Assembly (NCBI GenBank): GCA_018333995.1
Contig: JAGXSG010000027.1
Coordinates: forward strand, 1 to 39,192
Length of the DNA stretch: 39,192 bases
Source: Clostridiales bacterium
GTDB taxonomy: Bacteria > Actinomycetota > Coriobacteriia > Anaerosomatales > SLCP01
Direction: 5' to 3'
The position numbers and the translations under genes are program-made. Of this stretch, positions 36,781 to 39,192 are shown piece after piece. Position 1 is the first letter of the stretch; each line of letters begins with the position of its first letter. The notes under the pieces are model-generated. The model was not told where the DNA came from. It worked only from the letters and a program-made list of their open reading frames with translations, and did no database searches.

Positions 36781-38919
36781 TTACGGCAGACCCTTGAGGA
36801 GTAGTTCCCAACCGGTCACATTCCAAGTCTCCGTGCCGAGCGGGTCGCCCGAAGTAAAGTCGGCGTAGTAATCGGGGTTATCGCCGTTCCAGAAGGTAGC
36901 GTCACCGTGGCAGTCGATGCACACCGAGTCGAGGCTGTGCGTGACCTGCCCGGCGATGTTCGCGTACTTCCAGCTGTCGCCGAAGTATCCGGCCCCAAAC
37001 GAGGCCTCGACGCTAGCTGTTGTCAGGCGCGTCTCTCCGGGGCCGATCGCGGTGCCGTCGAAGTCAACGCCCCATAGCTCGTCTTTGAGCATGTTCACTC
37101 CGAGCGTACGGTGAGGATAGCTGAATCCGCCGTCGATGCACTGAGCACCGACATTCGCGACGGCGTTGGTGCGGACTGAAGGAACTCCCAGGTAGCTCGT
37201 GCGACCCTCATACTGCAGATCGTTGGGATCCGCATACACACCGTTTGTGGCCGACGCGTACGCGCCCTTGCCAAAGTGAATCCAGTTCTCCCCATCCGGG
37301 TCGTGACAGGTGTAGCAGCCCGAAGCGCCGGTGTGGCAGTTGGCGCAGTGGGGACCGAAGTTGTTTTCATCGCCCGGGTTCAGGTACTGCTGCCGAGCAC
37401 AACCACGGCTGTTCGAATCGTGGCTGAAGGCCGTCATGTAGTCGCCAACCTCAGGCACGTACACTTTGGCGGGCTGGGTCGACAAACCCGCGGTACCATC
37501 ATGGCATGACGTGCAGAACTCGTTCTGCATCGCAACGCCTCTAGGTGCCCACGGGAACGCGAGCGGGAAACGCTCGTTGCTATCCGTCGAGAAGAACGGA
37601 CCCCAGCTGGCCGCCGGACCGAGTGGCCAATCCCAATCGATCGCCTGCTTCTTGCCGTTGACAGCGTTGGCTTCTTGCCATTCGCCACCAACCTTGCCGA
37701 CAACCTTGGTATCGCCAAACGGCTGGCCCGTCATCGGATTGACAGCCGAGAAGTCGTCACCCGTGTCCGGGTTCTTCAGCAGGAGGAAGCGGCCCTCGGG
37801 AAAGAGCGGCTTGACCCATACCTCGACCTCAGGCGGTGCCGTTGGACCATAAGCGCCACCGGCCAGTTGCTGATAGTTGCCCATGTTCCAGAACTTGGTG
37901 TTGATGTTGCCTGCCTGAAGATCGATCCCCCAGTAGATGTACCAGTTCTGCATGAGATTGGTCAGCGTTGGCGGGAAGAGCCCCATGAGCGCACCCATCT
38001 CGGACGGCGTGACGGCGTAGTAGCCATCAGCGCTCACCGGAAGCGCAGTCATGGGGTCGCCGTCGTCCAGACCCATCCACCAACCCTGGATCGCGCTCAT
38101 ATCCGGGGCCTTGGGTGCACCGGCAGCCGCCCACGCACCCATGAAAGGAGTGACATCCAGCGGGTCAGGAGCGTTCGCGATGTGCGTCGCTTCAGTGCTG
38201 CTCCAAACCGGAGGACCCATCTTGGTGAGGTCTTCCGGAATGACCATGTGGGCGCCACCCGAACCCATGGGGAACTTGACCTTGAACATCTCTTGCAGAC
38301 GCAAGATCTGCGTCGTCATGAAGTCAGCACCGTACATGGTGTTGATCATGCCATCACCCGCGGGACGCGACGGGCTCCCAAACGCCTCGAGCACGCGAGC
38401 GGAGTTGCCGTGCGGGGTGTGGCAGCTAAAGCATGCCAGACCCGCGGCATCCGTAAACGCGGGCTCGATATCAGCCGGAGCACTACCGCTGTAGCCGAGC
38501 GTGTGGCCCGTGCCAAGGTAGTTGTCGGCGCTCGCTATGACGCCATCAGCGTCGTAGGCGTTGTCCATCTGGATGTTGATGGACGATCCGCCGCCGCCCG
38601 CGTGACAGAACGTACAAGCGTTCTCGCGGTCGTTGGCGCGAAGCAGCATATAGCTACCGAGCGCGTAGTGGGTCGAGTGGCAGTCCTGACACTTGTTCGT
38701 TGTCGTCGTGTAACCACCATGAGGACCCGCGAACGACTGCACCTGGTCGGTGCCCTGAACGCTGCGGACATAGATGCCGGCGTTATCCCCGTACCCCGGC
38801 AGATCACTTTCGGTCGTGTAGTTCCAGCCTCCATCGTTGTAGCCCTCGGCAAACGCGGGGACCGCCGCGATGGCAAGCACAGCGGCCGTGAGCACGGCCA
38901 ACATGAGTGCTCTCTTCAC
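36781..38919 (-). CDS. Secreted seven-haem c-type cytochrome
   Basis: An exported multihaem cytochrome of 712 residues. A classical signal peptide (1-24, KRALMLAVLTA core, PAFA cleavage site) is followed by seven CxxCH sites: residues 77-81, 102-106, 163-167, 469-473, 525-529, 535-539 and 667-671. The first three and the last four are separated by about 300 haem-free residues rich in aromatic residues, Gly and Pro. No membrane anchor, LPXTG or S-layer motif is seen. I chose GTG at 38919, eight bases after GGGAGG. An ATG at 38961 with its own GGGAGG would add 14 residues before the signal peptide. It probably transfers electrons outside the membrane; donor and acceptor are unknown. It stands as its own unit. 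Confidence 0.92.
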   Translation of the reverse strand: MKRALMLAVLTAAVLAIAAVPAFAEGYNDGGWNYTTESDLPGYGDNAGIYVRSVQGTDQVQSFAGPHGGYTTTTNKCQDCHSTHYALGSYMLLRANDRENACTFCHAGGGGSSINIQMDNAYDADGVIASADNYLGTGHTLGYSGSAPADIEPAFTDAAGLACFSCHTPHGNSARVLEAFGSPSRPAGDGMINTMYGADFMTTQILRLQEMFKVKFPMGSGGAHMVIPEDLTKMGPPVWSSTEATHIANAPDPLDVTPFMGAWAAAGAPKAPDMSAIQGWWMGLDDGDPMTALPVSADGYYAVTPSEMGALMGLFPPTLTNLMQNWYIYWGIDLQAGNINTKFWNMGNYQQLAGGAYGPTAPPEVEVWVKPLFPEGRFLLLKNPDTGDDFSAVNPMTGQPFGDTKVVGKVGGEWQEANAVNGKKQAIDWDWPLGPAASWGPFFSTDSNERFPLAFPWAPRGVAMQNEFCTSCHDGTAGLSTQPAKVYVPEVGDYMTAFSHDSNSRGCARQQYLNPGDENNFGPHCANCHTGASGCYTCHDPDGENWIHFGKGAYASATNGVYADPNDLQYEGRTSYLGVPSVRTNAVANVGAQCIDGGFSYPHRTLGVNMLKDELWGVDFDGTAIGPGETRLTTASVEASFGAGYFGDSWKYANIAGQVTHSLDSVCIDCHGDATFWNGDNPDYYADFTSGDPLGTETWNVTGWELLLKGLP

Positions 38920-39054
38920 AGTACGTACCTCCCTATTGTAGATCGTGCGAATGTTCGTCATTTCACATACACCTCCCTTCCTGACGAGAGTGTCTCGATC
39001 AGGGGCGTGTGACCGCCCGAGAACGACCTTTGGTGAGTACCCCGCAAATACCAC

Positions 39055-39068
39055 TACCCCCATGGGTA
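39055..39068. promoter_or_regulatory. Operator A, TACCC-N4-GGGTA
   Basis: A palindrome with five-base arms lies 136 bases upstream of the cytochrome GTG. If the candidate promoter at 39078-39107 is right, it would sit just after the transcription start. It is part of a degenerate 24-base direct repeat (39047-39070) shared with operator B. Confidence 0.6.
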
Positions 39069-39077
39069 CTCTAAGAG

Positions 39078-39107
39078 AGAATACTCCTACCCATTGGGGT
39101 ACCACAA
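39078..39107 (-). promoter_or_regulatory. Candidate promoter of the cytochrome gene
   Basis: On the minus strand TTGTGG (39102-39107) and TATTCT (39078-39083) are separated by 18 bases. Each hexamer matches the sigma-70 consensus at about four positions, so support is moderate at best. Operator B fills the spacer, an arrangement expected for repression. Confidence 0.4.
39088..39101. promoter_or_regulatory. Operator B, TACCC-N4-GGGTA
   Basis: A second palindrome with the same arms as operator A, displaced by exactly 33 bases (about three helical turns) and embedded in the matching 24-base repeat 39080-39103. The G-tract palindrome resembles the kind of operator bound by the CsoR/CstR/RcnR metal- or persulfide-sensing repressors, an inference from general pattern. 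Confidence 0.6.
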
Positions 39108-39172
39108 GAACGTTCGGGAAATTAATCACGATGAATCGGCGAACGGCGTGAACCAACCTGAAAGCAAGGAGG

Positions 39173-39192
39173 CCGCCTCTGTTCAGAGACGG
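39173..39192. terminator. Hairpin at the window edge
   Basis: CCGCCTCTG and CAGAGACGG are near-perfect complements (one G-U type pair) with a very short loop, ending at the last base. It may be the terminator of a neighbouring gene outside the window; the sequence is cut, so this is tentative. Confidence 0.3.

Follow-up and report, generated by a model that had tools for sequence, protein, structure and literature searches.

Paired TACCC-N4-GGGTA palindromes before a multihaem cytochrome gene as a probable tandem operator of a CstR-like repressor

Introduction

The closest precedent for the locus described here is CsoR of Streptomyces coelicolor, which represses from two ATACC-N6-GGTAT sites in one promoter (at -48 and -9) and leaves the DNA when sulfane sulfur modifies its Cys37 (PMC7533328). 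Two-cysteine repressors of the DUF156 family include CstR of Staphylococcus aureus and YrkD of Bacillus licheniformis, which act on genes for sulfur carriers, rhodanese and sulfide oxidation (PMC9918477). The copper-responsive CsoR of Streptomyces lividans has the operators AATACCCCTGGTGGGTATA and GTACCCCCTAGGGGTAT, and two CsoR tetramers occupy one such palindrome (PMC3902906). In Thermus thermophilus, TTHA1953 is a CsoR-family regulator of sulfur oxidation with scattered targets that include c-type cytochromes and thioredoxin; its description indicates that motif and signal can differ among members of the family (PMC10318464).

Here we describe a pair of palindromes in a 39,192-nucleotide stretch of DNA (the window), located before a heptahaem cytochrome gene. 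With the S. coelicolor system, as reported, the locus and its counterparts in relatives share the form of the palindrome, the pairing of sites, a site in the csoR promoter as expected for autoregulation, a rhodanese target and two cysteines in the regulator. The spacing of the sites differs (33 bp here, about 39 bp in S. coelicolor), and whereas the S. coelicolor targets described are genes for sulfane-sulfur removal (pdo/rhodanese promoters), those predicted here also include a multihaem cytochrome and a chemoreceptor/selenoprotein locus (PMC7533328). The regulator found here is of the two-cysteine DUF156 type, in common with CstR and YrkD. CstR targets are often near the regulator gene, while those predicted here are also scattered over the genome, as for TTHA1953, and again include cytochrome and thioredoxin genes; however, the TTHA1953 consensus, TACNNTACNNNNGTANNGTA, is without G-tracts, unlike the window sites, and its cytochromes are c-552-related and, from the account given, apparently not multihaem (PMC10318464). 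The kind of repressor is known, but a multihaem cytochrome as target, a regulon scattered over genomes throughout an order and an overlap with selenoproteins appear, among the papers listed, to be new. For a multihaem cytochrome as CsoR target, a literature search, judged from the listed matches, gave no earlier report.

Results

Paired palindromes in the cytochrome promoter region

The features before the cytochrome gene are as follows.

36781 to 38919, minus strand: gene of a heptahaem c-type cytochrome of the Cys type, with seven CXXCH motifs; translation from GTG at 38919 or possibly from an in-frame ATG at 38961
39047 to 39070 and 39080 to 39103 (span 39047 to 39103): 24-base direct repeats, 17 of 24 positions identical
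39055 to 39068: putative operator 2, TACCCATGGGGGTA on the minus strand; exact pattern match, just downstream of the candidate transcription start
39078 to 39083, minus strand: candidate -10 hexamer TATTCT, four of six consensus bases, presumed, with a spacer of 18
39088 to 39101: putative operator 1, TACCCCAATGGGTA on the minus strand; exact pattern match, promoter-distal on that strand, between the candidate -35 and -10
39102 to 39107, minus strand: candidate -35 hexamer TTGTGG, weak, three of six consensus bases

An earlier, sequence-only reading of the window had pointed to this pair. A pattern scan showed its coordinates and counts to be right: two TACCC-N4-GGGTA palindromes with perfect five-base arms lie 33 bp apart before the multihaem cytochrome gene. 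An ungapped comparison likewise bore out the 24-base repeats, the pair starting at 39047 and 39080 being equal best among the ungapped 24-mer pairs within 38926-39190. The same reading had put the sites exactly three helical turns apart; the 33-bp spacing holds, but it corresponds to 3.1 turns at 10.5 bp per turn. Its placement of one site between the -35 and -10 and of the other past the start fits the candidate hexamers, although these are weak (seven of 12 consensus bases in total for 39107-39078, minus strand), and a stricter sigma-70 scan upstream of the cytochrome gene called no promoter.

When the 39-kb window was scanned for TACCC-N(3-5)-GGGTA with at most one mismatch, the pair gave the only matches. 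Under a second-order Markov model of the window, 0.011 such palindromes are expected in 39 kb, and the chance of two within 40 bp is about 1e-7. The inverted TAC...GTA ends around C/G tracts agree with the CsoR/RcnR (DUF156) operators given in PMC3902906, and one of the S. lividans copper CsoR operators shown there also has a GTACCC end, as does the window pair. The window sites are flanked as GTACCC...GGGTAG, without the outer A/T seen at the other five sites in the same genome. Judged from these missing bases, the pair may have a lower affinity, and its members may be weaker single sites that gain from pairing.

The window closes with 634 bases (38559-39192) that recur without a difference at the end of another contig of the assembly, C8, and C8 and the window contig (C27) probably adjoin. 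Because their ends share these 634 bp, the pair is counted twice in genome searches. The next gene upstream, on C8, encodes a second cytochrome of the same family.

Sites across the genome

Genome-wide, the exact N4 pattern gave seven raw matches, five of them distinct, versus one for the reversed control. Allowing spacers of N3-N5 gave nine raw matches versus two for the control, which represent seven distinct sites in 1.95 Mb: the two N4 sites of the window and the five listed here.

csoR promoter: exact site ATACCCCCAGGGGGTAT, the sole N5 site in the genome
Thioredoxin/CbiX-like intergene: exact site, 1.1 kb from csoR
HybA-like ferredoxin-cytochrome b unit: exact site
Chemoreceptor/selenoprotein intergene: exact site
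Second multihaem cytochrome, C3:61114: exact N3 site

Further copies of the operator, for which the sequence-only reading had suggested a search, thus exist, among them one in csoR's own promoter (TACCCCCAGGGGGTA). In this genome, thioredoxin is the sole predicted sulfurtransferase or thiol target: no rhodanese gene lies at a site, and CcdA has no N4 site even at two mismatches.

Looser patterns were not enriched. The N4 pattern with at most one mismatch gave 38 matches versus 32 for the control, and one-mismatch sites were therefore rejected as extra regulon members; the loose published consensus was rejected as a genome-wide predictor, since TACC-N6-GGTA gave 27 matches versus 36. The background rate of the one-mismatch matches is what would be seen if the palindromes had arisen by chance in GC-rich DNA. 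Against this stand the low probability of the window pair, its being the only match there at up to one mismatch, and the regulon and orthologue evidence below, and we rejected a chance origin as extremely improbable.

A single CsoR-family regulator with two conserved cysteines

A DUF156 gene, which had also been proposed as something to look for, was found by profile search: one PF02583 gene in the genome scored above cut-off (C28:56386-56619, 89.4 bits), and a second match, on C12, scored 21.8 bits, under the cut-off of 22.8. The genome thus combines a cognate DUF156 gene with a site in that gene's own promoter. The regulator aligns with the solved CsoR structures PDB 7mq1 and 7mq3, deposited as csoR, which we take to be CstR proteins. 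Cys41 and Cys70 (own-protein numbering) were kept in all 38 aligned rows, from 33 genes, with Ser or Ala at position 66 between them. Cu(I)-sensing CsoR proteins have a Cys-His-Cys triad in which the His is a copper ligand. In the regulator, Ser or Ala takes the place of this His, and membership of the copper CsoR group was rejected on that ground; the His is present in S. lividans CsoR. Two conserved cysteines without a His at the copper position are as in the CstR-like subgroup. Matches to NCBIfam models numbered three (RicR, FrmR and RcnR), all far below the cut-offs, and the RcnR type was rejected as the sites do not have the TACT-G6-N-AGTA form given for it in PMC3902906. From its sequence, the regulator thus appears to be of the CstR-like dithiol type, and the sensing of reactive sulfur is likelier than that of copper or nickel because the two cysteines are kept and the copper-ligand His is absent.

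Among relatives, G009 (its contig C27:19356-19880; L139:1333-1905), G021 (C4) and G017 (C10) have double CsoR-family proteins, with two adjacent PF02583 matches in one open frame; the G009 protein was included in the alignment.

Linkage of sites to csoR in the order

A PF02583 gene above cut-off is present in 64 of 69 genomes of the order. Among the 30 csoR loci compared, out of the 64 genomes with the gene, 29 (own included) carry an exact N5 match 69-83 nt upstream of csoR; the one without an exact site is L119, from G015. Of 18 genomes with both csoR and a full N4 list (G005 and G023, with full lists and no csoR, being left out), 14 have an exact N4 site no more than 1.5 kb from csoR, versus 0.16 expected, in each case 569-1110 bp 3' of the gene. 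A second N4 site lies about 7.3-7.4 kb away on the other side of csoR in nine of the 18, and four (G012, G013, G026 and G039) have no N4 site within 1.5 kb.

The number of sites is less telling. The N4 pattern gave 321 sites versus 121 for the reversed control in 60 relatives, but in eight of the 60 the control equalled or exceeded the sites, and N3-N5 counts ranged from a clear excess in G009 (19 versus five) to ten versus eight in G034; site counts alone therefore prove little. Five genomes without csoR had 19 sites versus 12 for the control, a smaller excess, the difference being non-significant (P = 0.15). That csoR-less genomes keep such sites, and that looser patterns are not enriched, would be consistent with some other regulator favouring TACCC/GGGTA ends, its linkage to csoR being incidental. 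Such a regulator is very unlikely, however, as it would hardly explain the exact sites before 29 of 30 csoR genes or the N4 sites 3' of 14 of 18, and the form of the sites matches published CsoR operators.

Exact N4 pairs 5-34 bp apart are rare (four of 69 genomes versus none for the control). In three other genomes (L052, L053 and L054), a gene resembling, by eye, the FAD-linked oxidase of L177 has beside it an exact pair spaced 34-35 bp.

Genes at the sites in relatives

The genes at N4 sites were tabulated for 13 genomes, with gene starts extrapolated from tblastn. Names are from Pfam, apart from HybA-like (NCBIfam) and chemoreceptor (by eye). All listed N4 sites were covered for G000, G001, G003, G004, G009, G024 and G038, and part of them for G034 (eight of nine), G012 (two of nine), G013 (two of four), G023 (three of four), G025 (one of six) and G026 (one of two). 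Distances are from the site centre.

Chemoreceptor: ten of 13 genomes, 31-87 nt
Small ferredoxin: nine of 13 genomes, site at the presumed start
Rhodanese: eight of 13 genomes, 37-110 nt
CbiX-like gene: eight of 13 genomes, 68-165 nt
csoR-side thioredoxin: seven of 13 genomes (thioredoxin seven to eight), 47-94 nt
CcdA/DsbD: six of 13 genomes, 42-72 nt
HybA-like gene: three of 13 genomes, 65-85 nt

Much of the predicted regulon is a sulfur and thiol set, and the sulfurtransferase and thiol genes at the sites (rhodanese and thioredoxin) are as in the CstR-like subgroup. The sequence-only reading had left the signal as copper, nickel or sulfur species; sulfur fits best, given the Cys/Cys arrangement without His and the sites of relatives at rhodanese, thioredoxin and CcdA. 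The same repressor might instead answer to a metal (copper, zinc or nickel), which would tie the cytochrome to metal stress. The form of the operator is shared with the copper-sensing CsoR of S. lividans, as described in PMC3902906, and a CDF transporter gene diverges from csoR, the N5 site lying in the gap that separates the two. In relatives, CcdA has as its neighbour an HMA gene whose CopZ matches are under the cut-off, and in the own genome both genes are some 7 kb away from csoR. We nevertheless consider a metal signal unlikely: the triad His is replaced in every aligned row, the RicR, FrmR and RcnR models all fall below cut-off, and the sites stand before rhodanese, thioredoxin and CcdA but directly before HMA in none of the 13 genomes.

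Operator-like sites at cytochrome orthologues

Only two Cys-type orthologues of the window's cytochrome were found in relatives, in G034 and G009. The G034 gene has two one-mismatch sites 43 bp apart and the G009 gene has one exact site with an N3 spacer. These sites lie 164-257 nt upstream of their genes, and the own-genome operators 149-182 nt upstream. The sequence-only reading had expected the repeats to recur in orthologous promoters, and both other Cys-type genes indeed have operator-like sites. The footprint is not identical to the window pair, since the G034 sites carry one mismatch each and the G009 spacer is N3. Operator-like sites (at most one mismatch, within 400 nt) were present at all three Cys-type cytochromes versus one of 14 other family members (Fisher P = 0.006, kinship ignored). 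Twelve of these 14 have an in-frame TGA, and those of G023 and G054 end at contig ends, so that their type is unreadable; four gene starts among the compared genes were estimated.

The DUF156 gene, the extra copies, the own-promoter site (29 of 30 loci) and the orthologue repeats therefore give good support to the earlier assignment of the pair to the CsoR/CstR/RcnR-family operators.

A short palindrome, GAACGTTC, at 39108-39115 and at L085:7071-7078, is common to the own and G034 Cys-type cytochrome promoters, and its position relative to the operators differs between the two.

Proposed mechanism

Taken together, we think it probable that the two palindromes serve the one above-cut-off CsoR-family repressor of the genome, of CstR-like dithiol type, as a tandem operator; on thiol modification this repressor would release the cytochrome gene. 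The geometry is like that in S. coelicolor and suggests repression by covering of promoter and start, with release upon modification of the cysteines. We infer that the reduced repressor would bind the palindrome inside the promoter as well as that at the presumed start of the transcript, and that the two bound sites, on nearly the same face of the DNA, would block transcription of the cytochrome gene. Sulfane sulfur (persulfide or polysulfide) is the most likely agent to modify Cys41/Cys70, upon which the repressor would leave the DNA. The cytochrome would then be made, along with thioredoxin, the HybA-like ferredoxin/cytochrome b unit, the products of the chemoreceptor/selenoprotein locus and the second multihaem cytochrome.

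This amounts to a testable order-wide CsoR-family regulon in a little-cultivated actinobacterial group, and to the prediction that a thiol sensor controls multihaem cytochromes, that is electron transfer, together with sulfur-handling genes. Cultivated Coriobacteriia of the order Anaerosomatales are described as respiring sulfur and thiosulfate or Fe(III) (PMC9686372), and in such respirers it would be reasonable for a sulfur signal to be linked to which electron carrier is used.

Cysteine-type and TGA-type cytochromes

The window protein contains the motif HDSNSRGCAR, with Cys507 at the position where paralogues show an in-frame TGA. Two paralogues, L018:10765-13011 (on C8, directly upstream of the window's gene) and approximately L085:4852-6711, each have one such TGA (HDANTRH-U-AR), as do 12 family genes in all. 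A tRNA-Sec was found in the own genome (74.1 bits), and the TGA paralogue is likely a selenocysteine multihaem cytochrome. It gave no match at E 0.01 to the NCBIfam selenocysteine cytochrome model ExtKL (NF040886), which is named in PMC13188914.

The Cys-type gene and a TGA paralogue stand in tandem in both the own genome and G034, and the dithiol repressor might silence the Cys-type cytochrome such that sulfane-sulfur or selenium status decides between the Cys and selenocysteine versions. We regard such an isozyme switch as quite unlikely. In its simple form, as a selenium switch, it is disfavoured and kept only as a low-probability reading, for a conserved selenoprotein belongs to the predicted regulon and sites also occur at TPR genes upstream of TGA-type genes; the promoter site of the TPR gene is exact in G034 and has one mismatch in the own genome and G036 (three of 15 TPR genes). 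A literature search on the regulation of Sec/Cys isozymes gave, among the matches listed, mostly unrelated work.

The presumed selenoprotein of the regulon is a small conserved protein with the motif U-GPSWSPEE[IV]T (L020:5975-6316 and further loci; 15 genes at 16 loci, L004 and L020 holding the same gene). All 16 copies seen have the TGA, and in 11 of the 13 tabulated genomes the gene lies next to an operator site. Two copies gave no NCBIfam match at E 0.01, one truncated piece was weakly similar to DUF1462, and the protein possibly represents an uncurated selenoprotein family.

Finally, a repeat of the form TTAGTGAA-N5-TAACGAA, with variants, was seen at L090:3661 (-), L098:3514 (-), L087:45 (+) and L018:10577 (+). 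At three of these places a TGA-type cytochrome gene follows some 200 nt further on; in L087 the repeat is far upstream. It is perhaps the site of another regulator.
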